Origin: a virus
IMG/VR virus record: IMGVR_UViG_3300033571_022916
Span: 1-44,904 of that record
DNA length: 44,904 nucleotides
Strand: one strand, 5' to 3'
Shown in pieces: positions 3,495 to 43,084 of this stretch. Under the pieces are notes generated by a model, which saw only the letters and a list, made by a program, of their open reading frames with translations, did not search any database and was not told the DNA's origin. A program made the translations under genes and the position numbers. Each line of letters begins with the position of its first letter. The stretch's first letter is position 1.

Positions 3495-3515
3495 GTACTT
3501 TGCCAAAAAATATTT

Positions 3516-4738: not shown

Positions 4739-4773
4739 GTGATGTTGCTGTAACGCCTCAAGCCAATACCTCT

Positions 4774-4811: not shown

Positions 4812-4836
4812 TGTTTAAAACAATTCGATTTAATTG

Positions 4837-4866
4837 TTGACAAAACCTAAAACGCAATACTAATAT
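4837..4866 (+). promoter_or_regulatory. Promoter of the 66-aa gene
   Basis: TTGACA and TAATAT are separated by 18 bases, an excellent sigma70-type match. The -35 region lies in the 19-base block shared with the ribbon-helix-helix promoter. Confidence 0.8.
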
Positions 4867-4889
4867 AAGGCATCGAGTTAAGCAAAGCC

Positions 4890-5090
4890 ATGAACGCAGA
4901 CCAAATTGAGTATTTAAATCGGATCAACGAATTTGTGATCGCACACAGAAGCGACCTAGAGGCTATCAAGCCGCTTCAGCAGTGGACTTCACAAGAAATC
5001 ATGAAGGCATTTTTACAGTGGCAGATGGAATTGTTAAACAGAATCCAAGCTGACGACAACACGGTTAATGAGGTAATTACACTAATTTAG
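4890..5090 (+). CDS. Hypothetical protein, 66 aa
   Basis: Unknown, probably all-helical acidic protein (NADQIEYLNRINEFVIAHR, then WTSQEIMKAFLQWQMELLNR). It has its own strong promoter and is closed by a bidirectional terminator, so it is a monocistronic early gene. The leader ends in GAGTTAAGCAAAGCC, similar to the leaders of the P1-P3 genes. No function can be assigned. Confidence 0.6.
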   Translation: MNADQIEYLNRINEFVIAHRSDLEAIKPLQQWTSQEIMKAFLQWQMELLNRIQADDNTVNEVITLI

Positions 5091-5110
5091 TCCAGCAAAC
5101 AGCAAACGAT

Positions 5111-5148
5111 AAAACGCCCGTCAAACCATCAAAGGTAACGGGCGTTTT
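5111..5148. terminator. Bidirectional terminator between convergent genes
   Basis: AAAACGCCCGT (5111-5121) pairs perfectly with ACGGGCGTTTT (5138-5148). The arms provide T tracts in both directions, so it can end the 66-residue gene on the plus strand and the tape measure gene on the minus strand, whose stop codon is 6 bases away. Confidence 0.9.
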
Positions 5149-5153
5149 GCTGA

Positions 5154-8100
5154 TTACCTAAACCGATCAGCCCGTCTAGTTGCCTCAGCTTGCTCTAACG
5201 CGATTTGTTGCGACGATTTGCGAAGCGTATCGCTATTAGGGATATTGTAGCTATTGCTCACGTTAACCACCGTAGCGCGACCCTCGCGACTATCAGCGGC
5301 GGTCGCGTAATCACGCGGGGCAACCGCGATTGGCGTAGACGCGGTGAGATCGGACAGCAGCCCTAAGCCTAGGCGCGTCACGCGATCCGCTGGTACGACG
5401 TACTCACCGCGATGCACGATACCCGCGACTTCGTGCTTCGCGCCGTCGCCGGTGTAGCCACCTTCAGAAAATCCAAATAGACCAGCAAGGCTAAACCCTG
5501 ACTTAACCCCTAGATCGGCAATGCTAGACACCATAGATGGCTGTGCCTGAGGTTGGAACATAGAACCAAAATTAATAGCGGGGGCGGTCATGGGACTGAC
5601 GGGGGATTGACCAAAGAGGCTGCCTAGGTTAAAGCCAAATCCACTGATGCCCGCACCCATTAATGACGGCTGCTGACTGCCTAGCATGGACCCGAAGCCG
5701 TTGTTAGTAGACCCGCCCAATCCCAGCAATTGCTTTAGATCTGTAAAGAAACCTTGTGCCGCTATCTGTGCCCAGCTTTTCAGGATGGATTTAGCGAGAT
5801 CGGCAAAGGCATCACCAATGGATTTCGTTCCCGTGAAAATATCATCAACCAAGGTTCCAAAGGATTTATCAGCAACCTCTAAAACGGTTTCCCCTAAATC
5901 CTTAAACTCTTTCCGCAAATTGTCTAATTTAATCTCTTGAGTCTTGAGTAAGATTTCCCTCAGGGTTTGGATTTGCGCCACCGTCTTACCCTCTTGTGCC
6001 AATGCTTGCATAGCGGCGGGCGTTCCAGACAGTAAGAAGTTATAGCGCTCTAACTGAACATTGGTATCAGCGATAATCTTGGCTCTACCAGCCTCACGAC
6101 GGAACGAAGCGGCGTTAAAAATACCGCCCTGCTTCTCCAATCGAGCCGCTTGCAATTCGATCAGTTCGCCCCTCGATGAGGTCACCTCTTGAGTTGCCTT
6201 AAGTTCTCTTTGCCGCTCTTGCTGTCTCACCGCTGTTTCACGGGATTTTAATAGCTTAGCTTCATCCTCTTGTCGCTGCCTTGTTTCATTAATTCGTGAT
6301 TGGATTTCATTGATTCTAACGGGCTGTCCGTTTGCCCCAAATGCTATGGGACTGGTTGCCTGAAGCCGCTGTAAATCAGCCGTGCGGGTATCCTGTGCCG
6401 CTTTTAATTCCGCCTGCTGTGCGGTCAATTGAGTTCTTAGTGTGACGATTTTATTTGCATCGCTAGCACTGGTAGCAAGTCGTAGATCCTCTTCTGTAGC
6501 CCTGATTTTGTTCCTTAGATCCGCCTCTTTGTTATTAAAATCAGCCTCAATTTTGCGCTTGGCTTCAGTATATTCTGCCAATTCCGCTGCAATTTCGCGC
6601 CGTGCTGTGACCAGTTCCCTGTAGAGATTTGCCAATTCTGTGCGATAGGTTGCCACTTGGCTGTTCCGTTCTTTCTCGATAGCGGTCAATTCGGGATTTT
6701 GCAAGCTTGGAGCCGCTGCCTGTCTCAGGTCAAATTGCCGGATCGCCTGTTGCTGAGTAATAGTATCTCTGGTCTGTTCAAATTGAGAAATCTGTGCAAG
6801 CCGCTGGTCTCTGAGTTTTGCGATTTTGGCTAAGATTTCCTGCTGTTTCACATATTCTGCATTTGCTCTTTGGATCGAGTCAACTTGCGCCGCTCCATCC
6901 CTAATAGCCTGTTGGTTGGCATTATTAATATTTTGCCGCTGAGTATTAATACTTGTCTGTAAATCAAGAATCCGCTTAGTAGACTGTTCAATGGTTGCTT
7001 GAGCCTGACTTGCCTCAGCAGCGGCATTTAAAACATTAACAAGTTGTGGGCTGGTAGAACCCGCCTGAGAAGCGAACTCTCTCAAGACCTTAGGATCTAC
7101 CCCAGCGAGTTCGGTGGCAGTAACAGGTTTTTTGCTGTCAGCACTTCGCAACTGTTCAAGCCCTCGATTAGCAACAGTATTACTACGCAATAATTGCAAT
7201 GCAGCGGGATTGCTATTAAGCCGTCCCAACGCCGTCGCCAATTCACCCTGAGCCTGACGAAGTGCCGCCTCTCGAAGCGCTAGCTCTGCCTGCTGTGACT
7301 GCAATTGACGGGTTTGCTCAGCCGTAAATTGCGCTGGGGTGCGATTAGGAGCCTGCGCCCTAACAGCATAAGGCGTAGGCATCTGAAAGATTTTGGTTAG
7401 AGCCTCAGGGGTTTGATTTTCCTCTCTTACAATATGGAAGTAGTTTTCGTTTGAGGCTCTCTGTGGATCGTAGGTATCGTAATCAGCGGGTCCCTTTCCT
7501 GTTGCCACCCGATTCGCAATTTCTTCTACACCCTTAAATGAGATTCTGCCCCTCAAAAACTGCCTAGAGTTTTCTCTCATTTCAGGATTATTTAAATCCT
7601 TGATGAATTGCTCATAAGCCGCCTCTGCATCTTTTCGAGGGATTTTGCGCTGACTGACCAGAAAATCAATTGCGGTTTGACGGTCTCTAATTGTCTTAGG
7701 ATCGATTCCAAAATATGGGGCAAACTGCTTATCCTGAAAAGCGGTTTCTGTAATATTCTGCCCAAATGGGAACAAACCCGCCCTAGTCGCGTTAATGCGA
7801 TTGAACACGGTTTGTGCGACATCAACGCGACCTTGACGCGAAGGCGCTTCGGCAACCGCTAGCGCCGCGAGTTGCGCTAATTCGGTTGGCGGGATCGTGA
7901 GTTGTGCGACGGGCCCGACTTGGCGTAATAGCGATGCACCCGCGCCCCGCGTTTGCGCTAAACTCGCTGAGGGTTTGACGGTTGGGGCGGCTCCTATTGT
8001 GCCACCGACTCTGATAGCGTCTCTTAGATCCGCCCTGGAATCAGGATCAACTTTTTGATCGTTAACATAGAGTTCAAGGTGCAAATGAGGACCTGTTGAG

Positions 8101-11100
8101 TTGCCTGTGCTGCCAACGGTTCCCAGGGCTTGACCCGCCACTAATTGATCGCCTTTCTTGACCAACATATCCCGTAAATGGGCAAAGAAAAGCACTACAC
8201 CTTTTTCTACTTCAACTTCTACAACATTGCCATAGCCGCCCCTCTCACCTACAAAGGTAACGACTCCATTTCTGGTAATAGACAATGGAGCGCCTTCCTT
8301 GATTGCGTAATCAATTCCAGAATGGATATGGGTAGGACGTTGCACCCCAAATCCTTCACCCCTAATATTAGCCAGATTTTCATCGTACTTACCCAAGGGA
8401 ATACCACCGGAAACCATGCCACTCTTAGCCAATGGCTCATTGCCAGTTCCCAAATACCCCCCAGCGGAACCAGCGGGTGCGTTGCCAGTGCGCTCTAATT
8501 CTGCCTGACTAAGCTGCATCTCTTGCAACTGAATATTACGCTCTAAGGCATAATTAAGCTGTTGCATGGATTGAGACATCAGGTTAAATGTCTCTTTCAA
8601 TTTGGCGAATAGTCCAGGGGTTTCACGGATGGTTTTATTAGTGCGGTCTAATTCGGTTTGAAGCTGTGCAATAACTTTGATGTTTTGCTGGTAAGCAGTT
8701 CGGGCGCGGTTACCTGTTTCCGTGTTTTCGTTGATATATGGGAGTAGGTCAGCATTAGCCTTTTTGGTGGCGGCGATCAGGTTGTTATAGAGGGTAACGG
8801 TATCAGCAATGGTTTCTTCTTTGATTCGCTTCTCTTCCATTGTGGCAGCGATCTGTTTATCCAAAGCGTCAATCTGTTCTCTTTCGGCTGAGGTCAGGTT
8901 ATTCCGTTTTGCCTGCATCAACTCGATAGAGATATTCATCGCGTCGATCTCTTTGGTGAGATTCGCAACGTTAGGCTTTCTTGATTGCAATTGATTTAAA
9001 ACGACTGGTTCTCCATTTGGAGATAGCTGTTTATAAATTGCGTCGTAAGCCGTTTCTATCGTTTTAGCAATTTGGGGGTTGAATGTTGGTCTGTCAACAG
9101 GCTTGCGGACGGTTTCCTTTAATACATAAGTGCCATAATCTACAGACTCTAGAACCTCTTTGTATCCTTTCTTTGGCGCGTTCTGCTGCAAAAAGCCAAG
9201 CTCTTTAGGCAGTTCAATCCTTATAGGTTTTTCTGGCTGATTTAATTGGCTTTGCATTAACAAAAATGCCTCCGCCAATTCCCTAGCTCGGTAACTCTGG
9301 TCAATGACATCTTGCCGCTGTTTATCAGCTAAAGGATCGCGTCCTTTGGGTATTAATGGGAATGCAGTCAGTCCTAAGAATGCTGTAAACGGTGTGGCGA
9401 TCGCCTTCACAATTTCATTCTGAGGTAATTTGCTTTGCAAAAACTCATTAGCTTGCCTAGGCTGTTCTAGCAGCTTGCCAACCCAGTCTCCTTTGGATTC
9501 ATCGTAAGCACCACGCAACCCCTGAGAAGAAACTAATTTAGCCTGATTGGTTTCGTAAACCTTATTCTGTAATCGTGTCAAATCACTGACAGCGGAATCA
9601 ACGGTTTTCTTAAGGTCTTCGGCAAAGTTCGTAAAATTATTTTTATAAACACTTGACCAAACCTCAAAAGCCGCCGACCCTAATGCCACCTGAGCCGTGA
9701 CCCGCAAAACCGCTTTCCCAATATCGGTCATTGCGACACTGAACACCTTAGCCGCGATGCCGCTAATTCCGAATTGCACAGCAGCAGCGACTAGCGCGGA
9801 AACTAAGCGACTACCCGCCATTACCGCTAACGCGCCCACCGCGAAGGTCGCGCCTTTCAGAAGCCCAATGAGAACTGGAAGTAATCCAGAGAATGCGTTG
9901 ATCGCACCCGCCGCAATATTTAGACCAGCTTTTTGAGCGCTGAATAACGGCTCATTTAATTTAAGCTTCGCTTCTGTAACCGCGTTATTAAAGCGATTCA
10001 TCGCGCCTGCCGCCGTATCCGCTGCACCCGCGACCCCGCCGCTGGTTTCCGCTTTTAGCTGTGCCGCGAATTTCGTGATCGCGTCTAAGCCTAACTCTCC
10101 ATTTTGGAGCATTTTATCGAGTTGGGCAGTGCTTACCCCCTGGGAACGGGCAAAAGTTCCCATTGCCATTGGGAGAGATTCTCCTAATTGCCCTCTCAAT
10201 TCTTCTGCGGATACCTTTTGCTTACTTGCCATCTGGGTGATAGCGGTAAACGCTCTTTGCTGAGCCTGTGGGTCTAAGCCTTGTACCGCACCCGCCTGGG
10301 CTACCGCTGAAAAGATATTGTTAGCCGCACCGCCTTCTAGGGTAGTTCCCTTAAACGCTCCTAACATAGAAGCATATTGAGAAGTTGCGCTCTCTAAATC
10401 AAGCCCTAATCGGCTAACTTCAGAACGAATAAATTTAAGGTTTTCGATTCCAGAGGCGGCATCTTTGCTATTGGTGACAATGACGCGGGTGAATTGCTCA
10501 AACCGTGCGGATGTGTTGAATAATTCTCTTTGGAGGTTGCCAAGCTGTTGCGCCGCCATGATCAGCCCCATGCCTGTGGCGAACTGAACCAAGAAAGTGG
10601 CGGCTTGGGATTTAACAAATTCAAAAGCAGAGCTGAACCTGTTTTTAAACTTTTCAATATGTGGGGCGGCTTTTTCGAGGTTTTCCCGTGTCGCTTCCGC
10701 CAATCTTCCAATTAGCCCACCTCTATCACCAGCATCTGTTTTCTTGATAATCCGTTCCGCAGTATCTTCCCCTGGTGCGGATGGATAAGCAAAATCCCCT
10801 AAAAGCGCTTTTCTGCCTTTCTCGACAGCCCTCTCTAACGGCGTTTGCATGGGCTTGGCGGCATCCTTTTCCATCTCGTCCATCACATCGAAAACCCGAT
10901 CTGATGAATTTTTCGCCCTTAATAATGCTGCCTCAGCCCCTATGCTTGCTTCCCTAGAAGCGGATTGAACTATCTCAGGATTAACGGCTTTGTGAATCTC
11001 TTTGACGTTTTCCATCTCTGCATCAGAAATGGTGGATTCAATTTGAGAGGCTTTAACTTCCAGTTTTAACCGATCCACCTCTTGGTTAAGCCGTGACATT

Positions 11101-14100
11101 TCATCAGCTTGACTTTTGGCGGATGGTGGCTTAATCCCAGCTTCGCTATACAGCCCTTGCAAAGCCTGTTCTGTTTCTTCTGATTCAACCGCAAACTTAG
11201 ATTTAGTCAGCCCTTGAATTTTGCTGGGATCTACACCCATTTTTTCCAGGGCGATTGTTACCTTGGTGATAAAATTTGCCAATTCATCAGACATTCCCGA
11301 TAATGGGTCTAGAAATGCATACATTTCAGAGCCTGGAATACCCGCTTCTGTCGCTGGGATAGGCTTTAATTCTTGGGAAGGAAGTAGATTTCCTATTGCC
11401 TGCTCATTTTCAATGTTGCCAGATTGCAATGGGTCAAAATAAACCGCTTTAACAGCTTTTGCATACTCTTCTGCTAACAAATCTGTGTTTTCGGTTCCAG
11501 AAATTGCTTGCACTTGAGAGAGCATATCCTGTAAGGTTTGATGCCCTTTAAGGATCGGTTCTAACATTTGCTGAACCAATTCGCCAATCTGTTCTGAAAT
11601 GTTGTCAATAGTAGGCAATACGGCTGAGGCAGCGTTTTGTACCGCCCCTGACACGTTCGCCATCGCACCGGATAACTGCCCTTTTACGAACTCAGGATCA
11701 ATGGCGGTATGAAGAGATGTTGACCCTTCTGGATTAGCCCTGTTTCGTTCGTCCACGGATTCCAAATGGGTGGCAAATTGAATTAAAGCCGGATTTACGA
11801 TCCGCTTTTTCGCTTCAATTGCCATGTTCGTAATTTTTGTATTGCTGTTATCCGTAGCCATATCCCCAGTGGAATCAAGCATACTTACAGCTTGCTGCCC
11901 TAGGGTTACAGCAGGGTGAGCAGCATCAAAAGCCGCAGGGAATCCCCCCGCAATGCCAACCGCCGCAGGCATAACCATTTCAAAAGCTTGATCCACAGGG
12001 GCGCTAGCCGCTAATCTCGCTACTTTTGCGACAGCTTGATGAGGGGTTTCTGATTGAACAAATTCAATCGCATTCTTGACCGCTTGCTTAATCGGTTCTA
12101 ATCTTTGCCCTAGGGTTTTATCTGTATAGGTAGATTCGAGTAATTCCATTGGCGAAGGAATTACCGCGTGCATTGTGCCAAGTTCTGATAAATCATCAGG
12201 TTCATTTGCAGATTTGAGAGGCTTTGAAGATGGTGGCAATGCCTGAGTTTGAGCCGCAGGCAACGCTTTAACGCCACCTTGCGCCGCACCTTCTAATAAC
12301 TTGCCCGCACCCGCCGCTGTCCCCTTAATCGCTGCCTGTGCGGTTCCCGCGATAGCCTGACCAGCGGCGAGATTCGCTAAGCCGCCAGCCGCCGCTGTAC
12401 CCGCGCCCGTTAGGACTTGAGGTAAATGAGATTGAATCCCTTGGATAACCGGACCCGCCATAAATGAGGGCAGCATCTGTTGGATTTGGGCAGTAATGGC
12501 AGCGGTGATATGCTCTGCGCCAATCCCTGATAGACCGCCGCCTAAATGGGTTAATTGCGAAATGACGTGATCGACAATTTGCGATACCCCAGGTAAATGA
12601 TGAGCCGCCGTCATGCCTGCTACAGCGGGTAAAATTGCCTTAGCCTGTTTCCCCCCAGGCAAAACAGATAGAGCAACATCTTCAACAGCTTCTAATGCTT
12701 TGTAACCACCCTTGACCGCTGGGAGTGCCCCTGATGCCCCTTGCAACGCCGATTGCCCTAGAGATTTTACCCCATGAACTACCGCGTCACCAATTTGGGC
12801 TAATACGTTCCCAGTGGCGGCTGCGGAATCGGTCAAGATTTTGGCGGCAACCTTTTTACTTTCTGATTTAGTTTTTTCTAAGACGATGGCTAAGGCTTCT
12901 TTAGGGTCAGATACCGCCGTTTTAAGAGTGACGTTTAACTCTTTAGCGATTGACGCAATATCTTTATTAACAGCCTCTTTCAACTTGTTTAAAGTCGCAG
13001 TGATGTCTTTTGCTTCTTTTGTTTTAGAGGCGATAGGATCTTTGCTTATATCTTGGACAATCTTTTTATAAGCGTCCCTAAGTTCAATCAAGCTTTTGAT
13101 TGAACCCGTATTAGCCGCAATATTGTAAACAGCATCTATATCTTTTCTGCCAGTGGCAACAGCAGCCCGTCCCATTTCTAGGGCTTGACCACCTTTCTCT
13201 AGGGCTGGAACCTTCTTTTCAAAAGCCGCTTTAGCTTTTCCTATGTCGGACATATAGTCCGTGATGACTCCTTTGGTTTTAGGGTCAGCCGTCTGGTCCC
13301 TAATCCGCTTCATTTCATCATTAACGGTCTGAAGCCTGCCTAGTTCTCTTTTTCCGAGAGCAATGGCAGCGTCTCTATCCCCTTGCTCGATCAGCGATTG
13401 GAATTTAGCCTGTTGTTTCTGGACAAATTCCCTTGCTTTTAATACTCCACTAGCACTTACATCTTTCTGTAATTTCTGTACTGGCTTTGCAACTTCTTCA
13501 ACCGCTGCCAAATCCGCGGCTTTCGCGCCCTCAGCAGCTTTTGCGTTTTCCATCGCGGTCACAATCGCGGGTGGCGCGAGTTCCGCTTTTGCCGATTCCG
13601 CCTGCTTCGCGGGTTTCGCGCCTTGCGCTACTACAAGCTCAAATTCTGGTAATTTGGGAAGGCTTAAAGGGATTCTCGCTGGGGTGGGTTGAGGCTGTGC
13701 GGCTTCGTTATTCCGTTGAACATATTGCTCAAATTTCTGTCCAAACAAATAAGCGTCTGCTTCTTTGACTTTCATTCGAGCCGCTGCCACAAAATTATGT
13801 GGACTCGTAGAGGCTTCAATACCTTCCTTAATCGTTTGCGATTTTGAAGGGGTGATAGGCGAACTAAGCTGCTCTTCCGTAGGCATTATATATTGATGCT
13901 TAGAAGAAAGTTCGCCTTGGAGATCTCTTGCAATTGCGCCAACATCACCCGCCTCAACTTGAAGCCAGTGATTTAATTCGTGTCCAACTACGTTAGAAAT
14001 TACGCCTAATAAATCTTCTGGCTTTTGCGCCCCTGTAATTTCTTTAATAACAGACGGATGCAAAGCAATTGTATTTTCTGCTGGGGAATAAGAACCTCCT

Positions 14101-17048
14101 AAGCCTCTCGCCTGATCCGCCGTAAGTTTAGGCATGTCAGACATTTTAGGGGCGATAGGAGCCAAGCCTCTGGCGGTTCTTTCCTTGTTAGCAAGCTCAA
14201 CAACCTGTCCCACCATTTCCCTATAAACTTTAGGGTATTTAGCTTCATTTTCGGCTTGCGCTTGAAGCCTTTGGGCATCGGCTAAAGCTTTTTGTTTATC
14301 CTTATCGGCTACTGCGAATTGATCGATCGCTTGAGACTTAGTAGCTTTAGCCCTGCTGATAGAAGCGGATAATATTTGCTCTTCAGTAATTGTTTCTGGG
14401 GACAGTGTTCTAATTGACTGCTGATAGGCTCCATACTGCTTTACAAATTCTTGCGCTTTTTCGGTATCGCCGCTTGCTTGCGCTTTTCTTCCTTTTGCCT
14501 TGACATTTTCAGAAGCAACTAATAAATCACGTTTAAGCTGTGATACAGCCTCTTGCGGAGAGAGTAATTTCCCTTGGATAGATTGTCTTTGTTTTTGAAT
14601 TTGCCCTTGTAAATCCTGCACATCTTCTTGATTGTCAGGTGTTTTTTTGCGGAGCGTTGCATATCTTTCCAATGACTGCAAATCACTTGATGCTACCTGA
14701 TAAGACTCTTTAGCAGTTTCTCTTCTTTGACTTGCATCGGATAAAGCCGCAGAGGTGGCTTTAATATTTTCGGTCAATTTTTCAGGGCTTTCCGCAAACT
14801 CCATCGGTTTGGGAAGTAAAAGCTTGATTTCTTGCTTTGTTCGAGCGAACCCTTCAGATCTCGCCTTTATTTCTTCAAACTTTTGGGATTCCTCAATATC
14901 TTGTTGTTCAGCCTGAGTTTGCTTGCGCTGTTCTGCAATTGCTTTCCTTTGATAAAAAGTAAAACTAGCTTCAATCTGTTGATCTTCTGTAATTAAATCA
15001 GCGGAACTGGTTGCGATCAATTCCTGCAAAGTGGATCTTTTTTGATCTACTTGCGCTATCTTTTCGTCAAGTTTTGCAATTGCCTCAGAACGGATTTGCT
15101 TATATTTGTTTTTGTCTTCTTCGGACGCAGTGACCTCAGGTAAATCTACATTTTTAATTTCCTGTTCAAGTTTTTGTCTTTGGAATTGAAGCTTAGAAAT
15201 CTGCCGAGACATTTTCGCAGACTCTTTTCGCCTATCCCCTTGAACAACCTCCAAGGCTTGCTCTTTAGGGATGAGTCGTTTTTGCGCCGCGGGTTCAAGG
15301 GTGGGGCGACTTTGTTCCGCTTGTTTTAGAAGTTGCTCGTAGTTATATTTAGAAGCTTCCGCAACTTGTTCAGGGGTGAAAATATTTTGGGATGGCTGAA
15401 ACTGTTTTAGCTTTTCATTCTCAGCTTCTAGTCTAAGCACCTCTTCGCCAAATTTTTTGCGTTCCGCTTTTGAATACAGTCCTGTTCCGCGATCTGGATC
15501 GACTTTTGGCTTTAAGCTGGCAATTCTTAAGCGGTTTGATTCTATTTGCTCTGCAATATCTTCTTTTTGTTTTTTAGATTCTCTATCCCAACCAGCCACA
15601 GCCTTAAACTGTTTGGGAGTATCCCCAGCAGTCAACCCAATAAACTCTTTAAGAGACTGGATTTCATTTAAAGATGCCTGTTTTTCGTCGTCAGTTAGCG
15701 TTCCAGAAGCAATTTTGGCTCTTTCAGCTTTAATCCTTTCTTGAAAAGGGGCGTACTCAGCCCGTTTTTTCGCCTTTAATTGAGTGGCGATTTCAGTAGC
15801 GTCAGTTAATTGAGTCCCTTTTTCTAATCCCTCTTGGGCTGTGGTAACAGTTTTACGGTATTCAGCATAAGTTTTGACAACCTCTGCATTAGCTTCAAAT
15901 TCTTTTTGTGCGGCAACAGAAGCACCTAAGTCCTTTTTGCGTTGTACAGCCCGTTCAATTAATTGCTGCTTTTCAATGTTGTCTTTTTCTTGCTGAGCAA
16001 ATTGTTGTCGATATTCATAAACTAGCTGTTCTGTTCCGCCACGCCTTTCAGCCTCACCTTGCTGCCTCACCGCCCCCCGCCGTTGCGCCGATGCCGCTAC
16101 AGCAGATTCTTTTCCTACGAACTCTTGCAACTTATCCGAAACCTTAGCAGGATCGGGAATTGACGCACGAATTGCCGCCGTTACAGATTCTGAGATTTTA
16201 GTCCCTAAAGCTTGCCCCAACAAATCCATCGAACCAATGGAACGCCCAGCGGCAATCTCAATGGATTTAGATAGTCCAATGGATAAATCTTTTGATAACT
16301 GTTCCCCAACCCCAAAAAACGCCCCTGACAAAGCCAGTTTAATAGGCGCAATAGCGATATTGCCAATTCCTTTAAGCAGATTCTCGAATAGACCGCCTCT
16401 AATCCCTGTTGGCAGCCGATCAATACTACTTCCCAGATCCTTCGCTAATTTCTGATTCTCACTATTAATACTTTTCAGCGTAGCATTAAGCGTAGATTCT
16501 TGATGACGAATCGCACTTACTAAACTGGCATTCAATTTGTCTAACGACTTACACGGATCGCACTCCCCAGCCCCGCGCTTAGCCGCTTCTGTTCTAACAA
16601 CAATATTCTGCCCCGCGCTACCCGCGACACCCGCGTTATCCGCTGTAATCGCGACGGTGCGAGGCTTCGCGGTGGTTCGCGATAGGCGCTCTAATTTGCG
16701 TTCTAGGGCATCATAGGCGCGTCCGATTTCTTCGGCACTGGCAACACCAGAGGCTTTAATCGCTTCATAAGCCTGTACCGCTTTGCGCTTTTCCTCTGCA
16801 ATTTGGGAATCGCTCTTTAACCCTAGGGACTTGTAAGAGCGCTGAATATCTGTTAGCGATGCCACCGCCTGCTGTGCCGCTTGCATCCGCTTCGCCGCAC
16901 TCGCTTCCTGCGCGGCGGTCGCGGTTTGGGCGGCGGTTTCAGTGGACTTCATCGCCGCTTCGTAAGTTTCGGCAGCTTGGTTAATTGCTCCTATGGCTTC
17001 AGGTACACCAGAAACAGAGAATTTTACGTTAAGCTGCCGATCTGCCAT
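5154..17048 (-). CDS. Giant tape measure protein with multiple enzymatic domains
   Basis: A 3964-residue tail tape measure protein, the ruler that sets tail length and is ejected with DNA. In order: N-terminal helical region with GECDPCKS near 160; Ala/Lys/Gln-rich coiled coil (about 300-900); a zinc-metallopeptidase-like segment (about 945-1110) with HELNH near 1021 and a later EADAY; alanine-rich linkers; the conserved tape measure domain (about 2160-2370, with SAEELRGQLGESLPMAMG); hydrophobic segments (about 2385-2450); an M23 endopeptidase (about 2880-3010) with H-S-G-I-D and HLHLE zinc ligands; a SleB-like cell-wall-hydrolase segment (about 3055-3205); another coiled coil; and the classic C-terminus (GGYTGDGAKHEVAGIVHRGE near 3870). 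It follows the frameshifted chaperone by 3 bases. The length implies a very long tail. Confidence 0.93.
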   Translation of the reverse strand: MADRQLNVKFSVSGVPEAIGAINQAAETYEAAMKSTETAAQTATAAQEASAAKRMQAAQQAVASLTDIQRSYKSLGLKSDSQIAEEKRKAVQAYEAIKASGVASAEEIGRAYDALERKLERLSRTTAKPRTVAITADNAGVAGSAGQNIVVRTEAAKRGAGECDPCKSLDKLNASLVSAIRHQESTLNATLKSINSENQKLAKDLGSSIDRLPTGIRGGLFENLLKGIGNIAIAPIKLALSGAFFGVGEQLSKDLSIGLSKSIEIAAGRSIGSMDLLGQALGTKISESVTAAIRASIPDPAKVSDKLQEFVGKESAVAASAQRRGAVRQQGEAERRGGTEQLVYEYRQQFAQQEKDNIEKQQLIERAVQRKKDLGASVAAQKEFEANAEVVKTYAEYRKTVTTAQEGLEKGTQLTDATEIATQLKAKKRAEYAPFQERIKAERAKIASGTLTDDEKQASLNEIQSLKEFIGLTAGDTPKQFKAVAGWDRESKKQKEDIAEQIESNRLRIASLKPKVDPDRGTGLYSKAERKKFGEEVLRLEAENEKLKQFQPSQNIFTPEQVAEASKYNYEQLLKQAEQSRPTLEPAAQKRLIPKEQALEVVQGDRRKESAKMSRQISKLQFQRQKLEQEIKNVDLPEVTASEEDKNKYKQIRSEAIAKLDEKIAQVDQKRSTLQELIATSSADLITEDQQIEASFTFYQRKAIAEQRKQTQAEQQDIEESQKFEEIKARSEGFARTKQEIKLLLPKPMEFAESPEKLTENIKATSAALSDASQRRETAKESYQVASSDLQSLERYATLRKKTPDNQEDVQDLQGQIQKQRQSIQGKLLSPQEAVSQLKRDLLVASENVKAKGRKAQASGDTEKAQEFVKQYGAYQQSIRTLSPETITEEQILSASISRAKATKSQAIDQFAVADKDKQKALADAQRLQAQAENEAKYPKVYREMVGQVVELANKERTARGLAPIAPKMSDMPKLTADQARGLGGSYSPAENTIALHPSVIKEITGAQKPEDLLGVISNVVGHELNHWLQVEAGDVGAIARDLQGELSSKHQYIMPTEEQLSSPITPSKSQTIKEGIEASTSPHNFVAAARMKVKEADAYLFGQKFEQYVQRNNEAAQPQPTPARIPLSLPKLPEFELVVAQGAKPAKQAESAKAELAPPAIVTAMENAKAAEGAKAADLAAVEEVAKPVQKLQKDVSASGVLKAREFVQKQQAKFQSLIEQGDRDAAIALGKRELGRLQTVNDEMKRIRDQTADPKTKGVITDYMSDIGKAKAAFEKKVPALEKGGQALEMGRAAVATGRKDIDAVYNIAANTGSIKSLIELRDAYKKIVQDISKDPIASKTKEAKDITATLNKLKEAVNKDIASIAKELNVTLKTAVSDPKEALAIVLEKTKSESKKVAAKILTDSAAATGNVLAQIGDAVVHGVKSLGQSALQGASGALPAVKGGYKALEAVEDVALSVLPGGKQAKAILPAVAGMTAAHHLPGVSQIVDHVISQLTHLGGGLSGIGAEHITAAITAQIQQMLPSFMAGPVIQGIQSHLPQVLTGAGTAAAGGLANLAAGQAIAGTAQAAIKGTAAGAGKLLEGAAQGGVKALPAAQTQALPPSSKPLKSANEPDDLSELGTMHAVIPSPMELLESTYTDKTLGQRLEPIKQAVKNAIEFVQSETPHQAVAKVARLAASAPVDQAFEMVMPAAVGIAGGFPAAFDAAHPAVTLGQQAVSMLDSTGDMATDNSNTKITNMAIEAKKRIVNPALIQFATHLESVDERNRANPEGSTSLHTAIDPEFVKGQLSGAMANVSGAVQNAASAVLPTIDNISEQIGELVQQMLEPILKGHQTLQDMLSQVQAISGTENTDLLAEEYAKAVKAVYFDPLQSGNIENEQAIGNLLPSQELKPIPATEAGIPGSEMYAFLDPLSGMSDELANFITKVTIALEKMGVDPSKIQGLTKSKFAVESEETEQALQGLYSEAGIKPPSAKSQADEMSRLNQEVDRLKLEVKASQIESTISDAEMENVKEIHKAVNPEIVQSASREASIGAEAALLRAKNSSDRVFDVMDEMEKDAAKPMQTPLERAVEKGRKALLGDFAYPSAPGEDTAERIIKKTDAGDRGGLIGRLAEATRENLEKAAPHIEKFKNRFSSAFEFVKSQAATFLVQFATGMGLIMAAQQLGNLQRELFNTSARFEQFTRVIVTNSKDAASGIENLKFIRSEVSRLGLDLESATSQYASMLGAFKGTTLEGGAANNIFSAVAQAGAVQGLDPQAQQRAFTAITQMASKQKVSAEELRGQLGESLPMAMGTFARSQGVSTAQLDKMLQNGELGLDAITKFAAQLKAETSGGVAGAADTAAGAMNRFNNAVTEAKLKLNEPLFSAQKAGLNIAAGAINAFSGLLPVLIGLLKGATFAVGALAVMAGSRLVSALVAAAVQFGISGIAAKVFSVAMTDIGKAVLRVTAQVALGSAAFEVWSSVYKNNFTNFAEDLKKTVDSAVSDLTRLQNKVYETNQAKLVSSQGLRGAYDESKGDWVGKLLEQPRQANEFLQSKLPQNEIVKAIATPFTAFLGLTAFPLIPKGRDPLADKQRQDVIDQSYRARELAEAFLLMQSQLNQPEKPIRIELPKELGFLQQNAPKKGYKEVLESVDYGTYVLKETVRKPVDRPTFNPQIAKTIETAYDAIYKQLSPNGEPVVLNQLQSRKPNVANLTKEIDAMNISIELMQAKRNNLTSAEREQIDALDKQIAATMEEKRIKEETIADTVTLYNNLIAATKKANADLLPYINENTETGNRARTAYQQNIKVIAQLQTELDRTNKTIRETPGLFAKLKETFNLMSQSMQQLNYALERNIQLQEMQLSQAELERTGNAPAGSAGGYLGTGNEPLAKSGMVSGGIPLGKYDENLANIRGEGFGVQRPTHIHSGIDYAIKEGAPLSITRNGVVTFVGERGGYGNVVEVEVEKGVVLFFAHLRDMLVKKGDQLVAGQALGTVGSTGNSTGPHLHLELYVNDQKVDPDSRADLRDAIRVGGTIGAAPTVKPSASLAQTRGAGASLLRQVGPVAQLTIPPTELAQLAALAVAEAPSRQGRVDVAQTVFNRINATRAGLFPFGQNITETAFQDKQFAPYFGIDPKTIRDRQTAIDFLVSQRKIPRKDAEAAYEQFIKDLNNPEMRENSRQFLRGRISFKGVEEIANRVATGKGPADYDTYDPQRASNENYFHIVREENQTPEALTKIFQMPTPYAVRAQAPNRTPAQFTAEQTRQLQSQQAELALREAALRQAQGELATALGRLNSNPAALQLLRSNTVANRGLEQLRSADSKKPVTATELAGVDPKVLREFASQAGSTSPQLVNVLNAAAEASQAQATIEQSTKRILDLQTSINTQRQNINNANQQAIRDGAAQVDSIQRANAEYVKQQEILAKIAKLRDQRLAQISQFEQTRDTITQQQAIRQFDLRQAAAPSLQNPELTAIEKERNSQVATYRTELANLYRELVTARREIAAELAEYTEAKRKIEADFNNKEADLRNKIRATEEDLRLATSASDANKIVTLRTQLTAQQAELKAAQDTRTADLQRLQATSPIAFGANGQPVRINEIQSRINETRQRQEDEAKLLKSRETAVRQQERQRELKATQEVTSSRGELIELQAARLEKQGGIFNAASFRREAGRAKIIADTNVQLERYNFLLSGTPAAMQALAQEGKTVAQIQTLREILLKTQEIKLDNLRKEFKDLGETVLEVADKSFGTLVDDIFTGTKSIGDAFADLAKSILKSWAQIAAQGFFTDLKQLLGLGGSTNNGFGSMLGSQQPSLMGAGISGFGFNLGSLFGQSPVSPMTAPAINFGSMFQPQAQPSMVSSIADLGVKSGFSLAGLFGFSEGGYTGDGAKHEVAGIVHRGEYVVPADRVTRLGLGLLSDLTASTPIAVAPRDYATAADSREGRATVVNVSNSYNIPNSDTLRKSSQQIALEQAEATRRADRFR

Positions 17049-36661: not shown

Positions 36662-38101
36662 TTATTTTGAAGCAGCAAGATTTTCAAACTTAGTCAGCCG
36701 TGGGTCAAATAGCAGTTGCACCGTTCCAGTCGGTCCATTGCGGTGCTTTGCCACAATCAATTCAGCCACCCCGCGATCCGCCGTATCAGGGTTATAGTAT
36801 TCATCGCGATACAAAAACAGAACCTGATCCCCGTCCTGCTCCAAAGATCCCGAATCTCTCAAGTCTGAAAGGGCGGGTCTCTTGTCGGCACGGCTTTCCA
36901 CCGAACGGTTTAGCTGAGACAGAGCTATTACTACGACCCCTAACTCCATCGCCATTACTTTCAATTTGCGGCTGATGGCTGAAATCTCAGCATTGCGATT
37001 CCCGCTACCATTTGATGGCTCGCCCTCCACAGACATTAACTGCAAATAATCAATCAGGATTACCCCCAAATTGCCGCCATACTTAGCCTTAATCTTTCCT
37101 GCACTGTGACGAATTTTCTCGACAGTGCATGATGATCGATCCTCAATGGCAATAGGCAAGGGCTGTAAGTCATTAACTACCTGAGCCATTTTGCTCCACA
37201 TCGCATCAGGCAAATTAGCTGACCGCAAATCATTGGCAGTTGCGCCATATTCCGACGATCTAGTTTTAGACCGCCCTGACATAATGCGATAGGTCAACGA
37301 CTCTTTGGACATCTCAAGGGAAAAAATTGCCACAGGGGTGTTATTAAGCTCGGCTATATTTACGGCTAGCTGTATCCCCATAGAGGTTTTGCCCATAGAC
37401 GGACGACCCGCCAAAATAATTAAATCCCCTGGATCAAGCCCCCCACCAGTCGTATCATCAAAGTCATAAAATCCTGTGGCGTATTTCTGCTTCAACACTT
37501 CGCCCCGTTGCCTAGCCTCATCAACCTTGACCATTTCAATCAGGGCATCACTAGCCAACTTGCCAAGACTCGCGCTATTCCCAGCTTGGGGGAATGCAAG
37601 GGCGGTCGTAGACAGCAGCATTTCCTGCGCTTGGTTCGCCACATCCGACAAAGACGCATCAGATTTAACTGCCAATTCCCTTAGCCGTCCTGAGACTTCG
37701 ATCAGCTTACGGCGGATAAAATACTCTTGGATTTTTTGGCAGTACGCCGACAACAAAAGCTCTGCACAAACCCCTCTGCTGTATTCGACTAAATAAACAA
37801 CTGTAGAACTGCCCCCAATAGCATCTAATTCGCCCGTGCTAGCCAGATAATCGCACACGGTCAAAAGGTCGATCGGCGTACTTTTTTTGTAAAGCGCAGA
37901 ACAAGCGGCGTAAATTTTCTGATGAGCCGCCACATAAAACGAATCAGCCGAAATCAAAGAGTTTACAAACCCAAAAACCTTATTTTCGCCCGTCATCTCG
38001 TCTAGGATTGCCCCCAGCACCCCCCGCTCTATATCAGTATTCTGGGGCGGCGCAAGCCAGTTATCCCCTTCAGGTCTAAGTACCTTAGGCGCGTTAACCA
38101 T
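36662..38101 (-). CDS. dnaB: Replicative DNA helicase (DnaB family)
   Basis: A 479-residue DnaB-type helicase that unwinds DNA ahead of the replisome as a hexamer using ATP. The N-terminal domain has the signature ERGVLGAILDE and FYVAAHQKIYAA. The RecA-like C-terminal domain has the Walker A motif GRPSMGKTS at about 232-240, ATGFYDFDDTTGGG before it, the Walker B segment GVILIDYLQL, and the arginine-finger and end motif DLRDSGSLEQDGDQVLFLYRD with IVAKHRNGPTG. It is full length for the family. It follows the replication initiator gene on the same strand with a 71-base gap that holds a TTGACT box. Confidence 0.95.
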   Translation of the reverse strand: MVNAPKVLRPEGDNWLAPPQNTDIERGVLGAILDEMTGENKVFGFVNSLISADSFYVAAHQKIYAACSALYKKSTPIDLLTVCDYLASTGELDAIGGSSTVVYLVEYSRGVCAELLLSAYCQKIQEYFIRRKLIEVSGRLRELAVKSDASLSDVANQAQEMLLSTTALAFPQAGNSASLGKLASDALIEMVKVDEARQRGEVLKQKYATGFYDFDDTTGGGLDPGDLIILAGRPSMGKTSMGIQLAVNIAELNNTPVAIFSLEMSKESLTYRIMSGRSKTRSSEYGATANDLRSANLPDAMWSKMAQVVNDLQPLPIAIEDRSSCTVEKIRHSAGKIKAKYGGNLGVILIDYLQLMSVEGEPSNGSGNRNAEISAISRKLKVMAMELGVVVIALSQLNRSVESRADKRPALSDLRDSGSLEQDGDQVLFLYRDEYYNPDTADRGVAELIVAKHRNGPTGTVQLLFDPRLTKFENLAASK

Positions 38102-38172: not shown

Positions 38173-39477
38173 TCAAGACGCAATCGCATGATTCGCTAAA
38201 TAATCATCAATCTGCTGATTTTCCCAGTCGGCTCCGTGAATCTCCCTCATGCACCCCTCAAACTTAGCTTGATGTTTCCGCACGGCGCGACCGCGCAAAG
38301 CCGCGCCAGCCGCTGAATCCCAGCTTTGATTTAGCACATTGTCCTGATAGCTTTGCAGCCAATAGCGCAACCGCGCCTCAGGCGTATCGCCAAATTCGAG
38401 TTCTGCAAGCCGCTCCTGCTCTTGGATTTCCGCCCTTTTCGCGTCTTCTGCGACTAGCGCCGCTGGGCGTACCGCAATAGCAGCGGTGTTCGCGTCCGTC
38501 GCGGTTGGCGCGGGTGTCGCTAAGTCCGTCAAATACTGTACCAGACGGGATTTGTGGTTAGCAGCGGTATTAGGTTGCTCTAGGTTGAGTGAGCCATTAA
38601 TCACCATCAGCCCTACCGCCCTTGCGTCAAATTTGCGCTCAGACCAGAATTTTTCGCGCTGCAACAGGCTTTGACCTAGCGACACGATAAATGACAAATC
38701 CATCCGCCATTCAGCCACCTTAAAACGCAAAAATTGGGCATCTTCGAGTTTTGCAGTCCACCATGCAAAAAGCTGGTCTTTCGTGCAATTTTCGGGCGGA
38801 GCCGCCGCAAAACGTGTCTCAGCAAGGGATTCAGGGTTTTCACCAGAGAGATTTTGCTTTTTTTGTGCAAAAGGGTACTGACCCGTTGGGCTTACAGATT
38901 TTTTTGCCTGAGGATCTTGATCCAAATTTCCGACCCTCACACACACACCCTCTTTTTCTTGATTCTCCTCGTGCGTATTAGAGGGAGTGTTATTAATAAT
39001 AATATTTCTATATATAGATGTCCCTTCAACTTTTTCGCTTTGATGCGGATCGAATTGATCCGGCTGAAGGATCGAATTGATCCGCTTAGAGGATCGAATT
39101 GATCCGCTTAGAGGATCGAATTGATCCGGCTGAAGGATCGAATTGATCCGCTTAGAGGATCGAATTGATCCTTTGACTTCGCTCGATTCCTGTGTATTTG
39201 CAGAAAAATTGCTTAAAAAATCTAGAGATCGAAAATAGCGGTGACGGGTCTTTGTTGTGGTCTCAATGATGTTTTTCGCCTCAATCTCATTAATGGCTAT
39301 CCTAATCCGACGGGTATCACTCCCCAAATCTTCGGCAATCTGAGAGCATGAGAACTCCGTCCATTGATCGGGCTGATCTGTCGATGATGCCAAATGCAAA
39401 AAGACCACCATCTGCATGTGTGATAGGTGGCTTTTTAGGGCTATTAGCGTCTTACGTGTGATACAATATCCTTGCAT
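38173..39477 (-). CDS. Replication initiator with internal iteron origin
   Basis: A 434-residue protein comparable in organisation to lambda O. Residues 1-90 form a winged-helix DNA-binding domain (QMVVFLHLASSTDQPDQW, then CSQIAEDLGSDTRRIRIAINEIEAKNIIE), followed by a linker containing the iteron-encoded repeats (about 103-144), an AT-rich-encoded stretch (IYRNIIINNTP), and a C-terminal helical half (from about 235) that would recruit helicase. It starts with AAGGAGGG about 7 bases before the ATG. It sits directly before dnaB as initiator genes do. The two 22-residue protein repeats (SIRSSKRINSILQPDQFDP) come from a 66-bp DNA repeat. Sequence similarity to a named initiator family was not seen. 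Confidence 0.75.
   Translation of the reverse strand: MQGYCITRKTLIALKSHLSHMQMVVFLHLASSTDQPDQWTEFSCSQIAEDLGSDTRRIRIAINEIEAKNIIETTTKTRHRYFRSLDFLSNFSANTQESSEVKGSIRSSKRINSILQPDQFDPLSGSIRSSKRINSILQPDQFDPHQSEKVEGTSIYRNIIINNTPSNTHEENQEKEGVCVRVGNLDQDPQAKKSVSPTGQYPFAQKKQNLSGENPESLAETRFAAAPPENCTKDQLFAWWTAKLEDAQFLRFKVAEWRMDLSFIVSLGQSLLQREKFWSERKFDARAVGLMVINGSLNLEQPNTAANHKSRLVQYLTDLATPAPTATDANTAAIAVRPAALVAEDAKRAEIQEQERLAELEFGDTPEARLRYWLQSYQDNVLNQSWDSAAGAALRGRAVRKHQAKFEGCMREIHGADWENQQIDDYLANHAIAS
38985..39023. other. AT-rich stretch beside the iterons (possible unwinding element)
   Basis: A run of A/T-dominated sequence (TATTAATAATAATATTTC and TATATATAGA) lies next to the iteron array on the side downstream in the initiator gene. 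In lambda an AT-rich element likewise follows the iterons inside gene O, and is opened first during initiation. The position matches this arrangement; its function is inference. Confidence 0.6.
39047..39171. repeat. Six 22-bp iterons (probable replication origin)
   Basis: GGATCGAATTGATCC occurs six times at 39047, 39069, 39091, 39113, 39135 and 39157, always exactly 22 bases apart, with 7-base linkers of two types (GGCTGAA and GCTTAGA, in the order A-B-B-A-B). The core is an interrupted palindrome (GGATC-GAATT-GATCC). Two helical turns per unit puts every core on the same face of DNA, ideal for cooperative initiator binding. Confidence 0.85.
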
Positions 39478-39651: not shown

Positions 39652-39894
39652 TTAAAATGACGATGACTCAAAATCAATTGCAGTACCAGTGACCTGAGTG
39701 CAATCACCAAACCGCCAACCAGCCCAACTAGGGTCTAATTGCTGCTTCAAAAGAAGCCATTCTGCGGCTTTAGCCTTGACGGATTCAGTACGCAGTAACG
39801 GAAGCTGGATCGACCGTCTACCTTTGCCACCATCAACAAAAGTGATTTCCCAGAGAGCAAAGTTAAGCAGTTGCTGTGCCGTTGGTCTTAACAT
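39652..39894 (-). CDS. Hypothetical protein, 80 aa
   Basis: Unknown protein with an N-terminal strand-rich segment (LLNFALWEITFVDGGKGRRS) followed by QLPLLRTESVKAKAAEWLLLKQQLD and a Trp-rich end (WAGWRFGDCTQ). It starts by TGATG overlap with the previous gene, so translation is probably coupled. It is the last gene before the hairpin and the initiator promoter region. Confidence 0.5.
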   Translation of the reverse strand: MLRPTAQQLLNFALWEITFVDGGKGRRSIQLPLLRTESVKAKAAEWLLLKQQLDPSWAGWRFGDCTQVTGTAIDFESSSF

Positions 39895-40163
39895 CAGATA
39901 ATCCCTCGCAAATTCGCTTGATCTGCCAAATCCTCTGCCAGTCGCTTATGGGCGTGACTGGTCAAACTCATCACCCATTGCAGCGCACCCGCGCCAAACC
40001 GCGACTCACCGCCATGTTCGCGAAATCGCGCCGCCGCGTTTGTCCAGTAATCGCGGGTTACGCCATCAATCGAGGCATCCGCTACCATTCCGCAAATTAG
40101 CGCACACGCACCCGCGAGGTCAGCGACTGTCGCGGTACGCCGCCAATCTTGAAATTCATTCAT
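39894..40163 (-). CDS. Hypothetical protein, 89 aa
   Basis: Start chosen at ATG 40163, which overlaps the previous gene by ATGA. It is an alanine- and arginine-rich, helical protein (ATVADLAGACALICGMVADA, then RDYWTNAAARFREHGGESR, LTSHAHKRLAEDLADQ). The DNA is one of the CGCGA-rich patches (39950-40130), in contrast to its neighbours. No function assigned. Confidence 0.55.
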   Translation of the reverse strand: MNEFQDWRRTATVADLAGACALICGMVADASIDGVTRDYWTNAAARFREHGGESRFGAGALQWVMSLTSHAHKRLAEDLADQANLRGII

Positions 40164-40474
40164 AGCTGTTCCTTCGCAAAAACTTGACATAGCCCATGCG
40201 CCAACAGTTTGCACTGTAAAAGCGTAAGGCTGTTAATCCATGCTTTGGTAGTTGCTGACAGATTGGGGTCTTCAAAGGCTTCGTAAGTGTTGTACAGGTG
40301 GAACCAGCCTTGATACAACCCTTCATAGTCTGCAATCCACAGCCGTTCATATAGCTGTGCAATCAAAGTGTCAATCTGCCCTGATGACTGTTCCATCAGT
40401 TCCTCTGCAATTCCTTTTTGTTGCGGCGGCAAAGCATCAACAAAAACTTTAGACAATAAACCTTGTAATTCCAT
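40160..40474 (-). CDS. Hypothetical helical protein, 104 aa
   Basis: Unknown helical acidic protein (LPPQQKGIAEELMEQSSGQI, WIADYEGLYQGWFHLYNTYE, SATTKAWINSLTLLQCKLL) with an aromatic-rich centre and no membrane segment. AAGGGA lies about 10 bases before the ATG. It follows nblA by 80 bases that contain a CCCCC/GGGGG hairpin, and overlaps the next gene by ATGA. Neighbourhood suggests a takeover function, which is inference only. Confidence 0.5.
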   Translation of the reverse strand: MELQGLLSKVFVDALPPQQKGIAEELMEQSSGQIDTLIAQLYERLWIADYEGLYQGWFHLYNTYEAFEDPNLSATTKAWINSLTLLQCKLLAHGLCQVFAKEQL

Positions 40475-40527
40475 CTGTTATAGTTCCCTTGGAAGGATAT
40501 GTGGATTGTTCTTTTTTTTGCATTGCG

Positions 40528-40550
40528 CCCCCGTTATTGGGGGTTTTATT
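40528..40550 (+). terminator. Small GC hairpin between nblA and the 104-aa gene
   Basis: CCCCC and GGGGG flank GTTATT, followed by TTTTATT on the plus strand only. As a minus-strand element it would be an RNA hairpin at the start of the downstream gene. It resembles the plus-directed hairpin at 39563 in arrangement. Confidence 0.35.
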
Positions 40551-40554: not shown

Positions 40555-40749
40555 CTATGGCAGCTTTGCCTTGGTCAATTTGGCGATCACGGACGATTGT
40601 CCCAAATACAAATGGTGCAGTGCTATAAGCAACTCTTGGGCTTCGCAAAGGCTTAGCTGTCTAATCTGCCCCTGAAACGCATGATGTACAAGCTGTTTTT
40701 CGAGGGGTAGCTCATTAAACGGAATTGGGGATGCTGGGATAATAATCAC
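40555..40749 (-). CDS. nblA: NblA-like phycobilisome degradation protein
   Basis: A 64-residue protein matching NblA, the adaptor that targets light-harvesting phycobilisomes for ClpC/ClpP degradation. The family core is present: LPLEKQLVHHAF then GQIRQLSLCEAQELLIALHH, matching the cyanobacterial L-S-L-E-Q-Q-F, Q-x-Q and S-x-E-Q-A-Q-E-L positions. The whole protein is about the family's usual length of 55-65 residues. GTG at 40749 is the likely start: it overlaps the TGA of the previous gene (GTGA) and has AAGGAG upstream; TTG at 40752 is the alternative. Phage NblA copies are known from Microcystis and Planktothrix phages, where they would redirect amino acids and reduce photodamage during infection. 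Confidence 0.85.
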   Translation of the reverse strand: MIIIPASPIPFNELPLEKQLVHHAFQGQIRQLSLCEAQELLIALHHLYLGQSSVIAKLTKAKLP

Positions 40750-40973
40750 CAATTTTGGCTCCTTACGTCTAGATGTATATCTGCCATCGCACGGGCGATC
40801 ATGCGATTTCGTGGGCTGTGGCAGCGCTTCGTGAATTTCAGGCTGCCTGCGAACACCACGCCCATCGCGACGTTTTGGCGGTACAAGATCGCGACTTCGC
40901 TATCCTTCACGACAAACGCCCAATCGCGTTCAATCGCGGGGTAGCGCCCTGGGGCAAGATTTCTGATTGTCAT
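40746..40973 (-). CDS. Hypothetical protein, 75 aa
   Basis: Unknown basic protein directly before nblA, with which it overlaps by four bases, so the two are translationally coupled. Sequence elements are LAPGRYPAIERDWAFVVKDSE, VAILYRQNVAMGVVFAG and CHSPRNRMIARAMADIH. It also overlaps the stop of the ssDNA-binding-like gene by TAATG. The DNA is CGCGA-rich. Coupling to nblA makes a shared role plausible but there is no motif evidence. Confidence 0.5.
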   Translation of the reverse strand: MTIRNLAPGRYPAIERDWAFVVKDSEVAILYRQNVAMGVVFAGSLKFTKRCHSPRNRMIARAMADIHLDVRSQNW

Positions 40974-41599
40974 TAGAATATTACGTCCTTTTCAGTTTCA
41001 GGGGCTTCAGCCGGTTGTAATGCAAGTGAAGGGTCTCGAAATACTGGTGGGCAGTTTCGACTCCCTTTGATAATTTCTTGCAGTTTCTGAGACAAACTCA
41101 TAAAAACTGCAAGGTTAGGCGCGTCAAAGTCTAAAACCAGCGCGGGTAAAATTGGGCTAGGTTTAGGAACTTCTTTAGTCGCAATTTGTGCTGATTCAAC
41201 GTCGGCATATTTGCCCGATTTGCCATGCTTAATAGTAAGAAAAGCATAATGTCCAGCGCAATTTCCGATATGGAATTTTTTCAGTTCCTCATCGGTAAAT
41301 GGGCGGCTTCGCCATCCTTCTAAGAACTTCCTTAAAGGGCTTCCCAACTTAAGGGATGGTGTAAATCGACGAGAAGCCAGAAAAGGCTCCCACTTCCCGT
41401 CAATGGTTACTCCCATAAGCCGCCCATCATGGTCAGTCACATAGATTTCCCATTGAAACATTACTTTAGGGGTGTAATTGTTGTAGGTATTATTTTTGAT
41501 TTCACCTAGTTCAATTACTTTGACGCATCGCGCCAAGTGAATCCCTTCTGGAACCAAATCCCTTTGCGAACCCGATTCGGGTGTTAAAGTTAATCCCAT
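40973..41599 (-). CDS. Phage ssDNA-binding/recombination-associated-like protein
   Basis: A 208-residue protein in which LVPEGIHLARCVKVIELGEI, then VMFQWEIYVTD, LGSPLRKFLEGWRSRPFTDEE and GHYAFLTIKHGKSGKYADVESA match the recurrent phage family that reads PAG-H-ARC-x-I-x-LG...F-W-E...L-E-SWRGRPFT-E-E. Such proteins lie near Gp157 and replication genes and are generally thought to bind ssDNA; the precise activity is unsettled. The acidic C-terminus (ETEKDVIF) fits an SSB-type tail. It starts the run of tightly overlapped genes leading to nblA. Confidence 0.6.
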   Translation of the reverse strand: MGLTLTPESGSQRDLVPEGIHLARCVKVIELGEIKNNTYNNYTPKVMFQWEIYVTDHDGRLMGVTIDGKWEPFLASRRFTPSLKLGSPLRKFLEGWRSRPFTDEELKKFHIGNCAGHYAFLTIKHGKSGKYADVESAQIATKEVPKPSPILPALVLDFDAPNLAVFMSLSQKLQEIIKGSRNCPPVFRDPSLALQPAEAPETEKDVIF

Positions 41600-42472: not shown

Positions 42473-43084
42473 TTATTCCTTTAAATCGCACGCCAAATCA
42501 CGAGCCAAATTAGGTGCCAAGAAGTTGACCGAGTTGATCGGGACATGGACAAATCCTAGAGGGGTGGGATTGCTCATTCCAAAATGCATCTCAAATTCCA
42601 GTAATCTCTCCCCAAAATAAAACAGGTGCTGAGGTTGCTTGTTGCCGCTGACAACTTTTCCCCGTTCTAAGGCATAAAAAGCCAAGCGGTACGACAGCAT
42701 GAGCACCGCTGAGGCATACCGATCCGCTAATTGCCACCAAGCCGTGGAATTATCTCCATTGCATAGAAGCAAGGTCTCTTGTCCGTTTTGGGCGCAATCA
42801 ATAATTTTCTGTACCCATTTGATCATTTGCCCCCGACTATATGGCGGGTTGCACCAATTGCGATTAGCCCAAGGCATGGATAGCCCGTTATCATCCTTGG
42901 TGTAATAGCGATCCGCCCGCACAAAGTTACTGTTGGCAAATTCGCACGATGCGACATCGAGGGGGATGAACCCGCCGTAAAACTCTCTCACCCGCGCCAT
43001 CAAAGTTCCGTCACAAGTGTACCGTTCGTCCGAACTCAGGGATTCCGACGGTTCCGAATCTGGCAATAATTTTATTTGCATCAT
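42473..43084 (-). CDS. Phage DNA N6-adenine methyltransferase
   Basis: A 203-residue methyltransferase of the small phage Dam-like family, which transfers a methyl group from S-adenosylmethionine to adenine N6. The family pattern is present: RYTCDGTLMARVREFYGGF, IPLDVASCEFANSNFV, RYYTKDDNGLSMPW and the catalytic NPPYSRGQMIKWVQK, with NPPY at about residue 79. The recognition site cannot be read from sequence. Methylation could protect phage DNA from host restriction or tune regulation. It has its own divergent control region toward the Cro-like gene. Confidence 0.85.
   Translation of the reverse strand: MMQIKLLPDSEPSESLSSDERYTCDGTLMARVREFYGGFIPLDVASCEFANSNFVRADRYYTKDDNGLSMPWANRNWCNPPYSRGQMIKWVQKIIDCAQNGQETLLLCNGDNSTAWWQLADRYASAVLMLSYRLAFYALERGKVVSGNKQPQHLFYFGERLLEFEMHFGMSNPTPLGFVHVPINSVNFLAPNLARDLACDLKE

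Follow-up and report, generated by a model that had tools for sequence, protein, structure and literature searches.

An nblA of Pseudanabaenales type among the replication genes of a tailed phage recorded in IMG/VR

Background

In NblA, the N-terminal part binds ClpC and the C-terminal part binds phycobiliproteins (PMC4103541, PMC7966870, PMC9602691), the motifs for both being described in PMC4103541. Phage-borne NblAs have been described from PaV-LD, Ma-LMM01 and MaMV-DC (PMC4103541, PMC9602691), whose hosts are Planktothrix and Microcystis, and phage NblAs of lineages other than the present one cause phycobilin loss on expression (PMC9602691). Phages are well known to reshape photosynthesis by means of viral NblA; an estimate quoted in PMC12892361 from Nadel et al. 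2025 puts the global reduction in photosynthetic light capture at up to 5%. Set against this record (PMC9602691; PMC12892361, citing Nadel et al. 2025), a preliminary description of the DNA studied here, in which viral nblA was "known in a few cyanophages", is an understatement.

The window, i.e. the whole stretch of 44,904 nucleotides that was analysed (positions 1 to 44,904 of IMG/VR record IMGVR_UViG_3300033571_022916), encodes a 64-residue protein that belongs to the same Pfam family as the NblAs of PaV-LD, Ma-LMM01 and MaMV-DC and, like them, is phage-borne, but has 21-22% identity to them. Those three proteins group with the canonical NblAs and not with the clade of the window protein. 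Viral nblA being already known, what is new, on the comparisons given below, is a separate lineage of Pseudanabaenales type without a representative in the isolated phages searched. This lineage, which is linked to a filamentous cyanobacterial order, would widen the host range of the strategy and offers a marker for finding such phages; no principle is changed.

Gene arrangement around nblA

The coordinates of the gene had been given exactly in the preliminary description, which did not name the strand; it is the minus strand (GTG...TAG, 64 codons). Reading the same interval on the plus strand was rejected, the frame being broken by internal stops. The features of the region are as follows.

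36662..38101, minus strand: DnaB-type replicative helicase (Pfam DnaB_C, E = 7.7e-88)
38173..39477, minus strand: replication-initiator (O-like) gene with an iteron-like array of 22-bp tandem repeats (phrog_678, E = 3e-4, and Pfam HTH_36, both weak)
39652..39894, minus strand: 80-residue gene downstream of nblA, from the ORF list
39894..40163, minus strand: small downstream gene, 106 residues if read from the GTG at 40214, with an ATG at 40163 that overlaps the preceding stop as ATGA; no family match
40160..40474, minus strand: 104-residue gene downstream of nblA, no family match
40527..40544, no strand assigned: G+C hairpin in the gap after nblA (terminator scan), followed by a T run on the plus strand
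40555..40749, minus strand: nblA, 64 codons, GTG start at 40749-40747 (Pfam NblA, independent profile, AlphaFold2 hairpin)
40746..40749, minus strand: GTGA overlap of 4 nt, the nblA start lying inside the TGA (40748-40746) of the 75-residue gene; read in the sequence
40746..40973, minus strand: 75-residue gene upstream of nblA, its ATG overlapping the stop of the 208-residue gene (TAATG)
40759..40764, minus strand: Shine-Dalgarno-like motif AAGGAG, upstream of the GTG by 9 nt and of the TTG named below by 6 nt; read in the sequence
40973..41599, minus strand: 208-residue phage gene, phrog_862-like (phrog_862, E = 5.7e-9)
42473..43084, minus strand: Dam-type DNA N6-adenine methyltransferase (Pfam Dam, E = 4.7e-20), upstream in the same gene run as nblA

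A TTG at 40752, three bases upstream of the GTG, is an alternative start that would give 65 residues. The proposed translational coupling to the 75-residue gene is in keeping with the GTGA overlap and the Shine-Dalgarno motif, as read from the letters. The three further small genes mentioned in the preliminary description were also found: after a gap of 80 nt come ORFs of 104, 106 and 80 residues that overlap one another, and then the O-like replication gene and DnaB. The G+C hairpin within the gap is not a clear terminator for nblA, since its T run lies on the plus strand. The 208-residue gene has relatives in environmental Caudoviricetes and in a Pelagibacter phage, and its product, which we take from a resemblance, may be single-strand-DNA-binding-like. 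The surrounding cluster is that of the replication genes of a tailed phage. Judged by these neighbours, to call the operon "early" seems fair, nblA forming one run with the Dam-type methyltransferase, the replication-initiator-like gene and DnaB.

The idea that the neighbouring genes are partners in host takeover is not supported. The 75-residue gene yielded nothing above noise in Pfam, PHROGs or NCBIfam and no convincing homologue in 386 cyanobacterial genomes (one weak match has internal stops), and within IMG/VR it occurred only in a duplicate assembly of the same virus. Neither the 104-residue nor the 106-residue gene matched a family in the same three collections. There is no sign of joint function among the small genes beside nblA.

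Six near-perfect 22-bp tandem repeats (GGATCGAATTGATCCGCTTAGA) occupy positions 39047-39171 inside the O-like gene. They hold 12 GATC sites in 125 bp, against at most 4 per such span elsewhere in the window. Taken with the Dam-type methyltransferase of the phage, these GATC-rich repeats are a candidate iteron origin under methylation control.

Identification of NblA

The sole family matched by the 64-residue protein in Pfam was NblA (PF04485), with 27.8 bits against a cut-off of 25 (E = 3.5e-6, model positions 1-48 of 50). Run against the 384 window ORFs of at least 30 codons, an independent profile made from 27 other NblAs, the window sequence being left out, scored the protein at 61.7 bits (E = 1.3e-18), with the next ORF at E = 1. 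Of 5000 shuffled versions of the protein, the highest-scoring one reached 10.8 bits. PHROGs returned no match, and the NCBIfam equivalog PhycobilmeDegNblA (NF045916) gave 13.8 bits, far under its cut-off of 100, so that the protein is not filed under this narrow equivalog. Over the core, no known NblA is more than about 50% identical to it.

Six positions that are invariant in our two alignments of viral and cellular NblAs (A3 and A4) are kept: L14, E17, F25, L41, L44 and K60, equivalent to L7, E10, F18, L34, L37 and K53 of Anabaena and lying in the N-terminal segment and the C-terminal helix. K53 is said, from work of Bienert et al. in 2006, to be a phycobiliprotein-binding residue. The C-terminal end is short, with four residues only after K60. 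The NblAs of solved structure from Anabaena (1OJH), Thermosynechococcus (2Q8V, 2QDO) and Synechococcus (3CS5) align with the window protein as a helix-loop-helix at 17-30% identity, and all four structures are recognised by the alignment A3 profile.

AlphaFold2, run with 18 window and locus sequences, predicted a two-helix hairpin (residues 16-30 and 34-61, mean pLDDT 80). An Anabaena-type control folded from the same sequences had helices at 9-23 and 27-55; residue n of Anabaena aligns with residue n+7 of the window protein, and with this offset of 7 residues the helices of the two models coincide, although, sharing one alignment, the models are not fully independent. Foldseek against the PDB returned no NblA for the window model, and the control, identical in sequence to 1OJH, likewise missed 1OJH. 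On the profile and alignment evidence we regard ORF 40555-40749 as encoding a true NblA. The family assignment of the preliminary description is thereby upheld, and two of the checks it had proposed came out in its favour: the search against the Pfam family exceeded the cut-off, and the predicted fold is a helical hairpin that agrees with the Anabaena control helix for helix.

Cellular and viral relatives

When an even sample of cyanobacterial genomes was searched with the window NblA, 11 out of 386 matched at E 0.01; the three top matches, of 40-43% identity, came from one order, within which 29 of 38 genomes matched. Two of those genomes have second contigs identical to plasmids of Pseudanabaena sp. 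ABRG5-3 and P. galeata CCNP1313, which identifies the order as that holding Pseudanabaena (Pseudanabaenales). In one genome, the cellular gene of this clade is found downstream of the phycobilisome core genes apcB-apcC. A pattern search of GTDB genomes gave no close relative of the window NblA. The NblA of the two named strains (57 aa, MSDLPIEKQFTHMMFCQQIQNIDLDSAKQLLTELHMLYLGQQAV...) is ~43% identical to the window protein and shares with it the L(P/S)xEK(Q/E) start, the LHxLYLGQ core and the clade; unlike it, the phage protein has ~ten extra N-terminal residues and keeps SLxEAQELL as the canonical NblAs do. In a 48-row tree the window NblA groups with the Pseudanabaenales clade (100/98), apart from those of PaV-LD and Ma-LMM01, and is basal, outside the crown of the clade, the finer branching being unsure with 62 usable columns. 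In the best explanation of these sequence data, the window nblA either derives from the NblA of Pseudanabaenales or has a common ancestor with it.

Other viral members of the clade were found in IMG/VR. An alignment-driven scan of its viral contigs with the Thermosynechococcus NblA found none, and a Pseudanabaena NblA query gave 12 loci, about nine with a recognisable NblA. The NblAs of contigs L117-L125 are virus-borne members of the same clade with 39-44% identity to the window protein; unlike it, they are close to host NblA, up to 84% identical to the Pseudanabaena query. In the contigs examined their nblA directly adjoins an adenine methyltransferase gene, standing directly before one of Dam type in L117-L121 and L125 and before one of MT-A70 type in L124. 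The methyltransferase that comes immediately after nblA in other viral contigs is homologous to the Dam-type enzyme of the window. Pairwise dN between viral copies of the clade lies well below dS (e.g. 0.049 vs 0.36 and 0.044 vs 0.37), and, by this measure, the viral relatives of the window nblA are under purifying selection.

Some loci are of a different build. A sister gene occupies the nblA position in L126 (5001-5198), directly before a D12-type methyltransferase; it has no match to the NblA model, yet its first residues are those of the Pseudanabaena NblA. L127 and L128 are close to this contig and have the sister gene too. At positions 4420-5174 of both L119 and L121, the first 17 residues of an NblA run straight into a fused HNH endonuclease that bears a NUMOD4 motif, and a complete nblA comes next; from this arrangement, a homing endonuclease seems to have entered a phage nblA.

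Among isolated phages, tblastn with the window NblA gave only noise (T4-like phages, E of 0.06 and above), and over 50,697 phage records this program revealed no isolate with a clear member of the clade. Queries with the Anabaena and G300 NblAs were equally fruitless among isolated phages, which indicates that tblastn lacks the sensitivity for so short a family; a search of named records with the Pfam profile was therefore used as the positive control, and it recovered the NblAs of PaV-LD, Ma-LMM01 and MaMV-DC. Pseudanabaena phage PA-SR01 had no match to the NblA model. Synechococcus phages Sf-CH8 (PV340853, 125067-125198) and Sf-CH5 (PV340852, 125264-125395) each carry an unannotated stretch weakly matching the Pseudanabaena NblA (41% identity, E = 0.05).

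Very tentatively, and at odds we would put well short of even, these loci might represent an undescribed phage NblA lineage from Pseudanabaenales that spread via several phage types in an accessory cassette with exchangeable adenine methyltransferases and is itself targeted by HNH homing endonucleases; some of its members (L126) would be on the way to a role other than that of an antenna-degrading adaptor.

Proposed function

We consider it very likely that the gene encodes a true NblA of a tailed cyanophage, acting early in infection as an adaptor between phycobiliproteins and ClpC that dismantles the host antenna. The same action as that of known NblA is the most probable one because the protein retains its fold as well as the positions that are invariant in the two parts. 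The gene would be expressed early from the replication-gene run, and its helix-loop-helix product would dimerise, perhaps also with the host NblA. The C-terminal helix would then hold phycobiliproteins while the N-terminal segment recruits the host ClpC-ClpP protease. Dismantling of the phycobilisome would free amino acids for phage proteins, and its loss would lower light absorption and photodamage.

An improbable alternative is that the phage protein serves as a regulator or decoy, pairing with host NblA or occupying ClpC, so that antenna loss is slowed and photosynthesis kept running. Synechocystis NblA acts as an NblA1/NblA2 heterodimer, according to a reference listed in PMC7966870, and a divergent partner could poison a pair of this type; the longer N-terminus and short C-terminal end of the window protein would also suit such a role. 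The phage NblAs of other lineages that were tested, however, promote bleaching (PMC9602691), and the terminal segments described for ClpC and for phycobiliprotein binding are both present.

Slightly less probable again is the reuse of an NblA-derived helical hairpin for another target, e.g. another ClpC substrate during infection. The high divergence of the window NblA would fit this, as would the viral copy of the same clade in L126 that lacks any NblA-model match, but the window copy, unlike the latter, still bears the family signature and scores above the cut-off. That nblA is a chance ORF or a decaying passenger is hardly credible: the ORF is small, and only near-identical copies of the window allele were found, so that selection on this allele is not measurable, but the profile score relative to shuffles, the good start signal with its overlap and the purifying selection among viral relatives all contradict it.

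The virus and its host

A second assembly (IMGVR_UViG_3300032292_001138) carries a near-identical nblA; this 60.8-kb contig contains the whole window in practically the same sequence and adds a GpA-type terminase and more methyltransferases. One of the latter, of D12 type, is 72-74% identical to those of L118, L121, G392 and G393, which indicates shared or related hosts. The portal, head and tail genes show 28-38% identity to prophage genes in two cyanobacterial genomes, and among isolates the portal is closest to that of Synechococcus phages S-LBS1 and S-CBS1. Given that nblA descends from, or shares ancestry with, that of Pseudanabaenales, the host is probably a member of this order or a neighbour of it; membership in Pseudanabaenales proper is somewhat favoured. 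Comparison of the 60 kb with 38 Pseudanabaenales genomes gave matches mainly to dnaB, dCTP-deaminase-like and methyltransferase stretches and no CRISPR spacer-like match. No photosystem reaction-centre genes (psbA-type) were found in the same virus or in four of the viral contigs.

Further observations concern the remainder of the genome. To the right of the window, a gene of the same virus (L006, 1193-2884) encodes a 563-residue N6_N4 DNA methyltransferase in which Pfam matched the methyltransferase parts only; judged by eye, it looks to be split by a mini-intein of about 145 residues with Cys...GN/S borders. A repeat of 44-64 nt is present in three copies (window 2079-2122, 2809-2883 and 3442-3516; core GTGGATAGACGGTCA or ATGGATAGACGGTCA), 633-730 nt apart and near minus-strand gene starts, and is possibly a shared regulatory site. 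In the tail module, positions 5154-17048 of the window form one ORF on the minus strand; its 3964 residues show partial similarity to the product of a prophage gene of the cyanobacterial genome G074.
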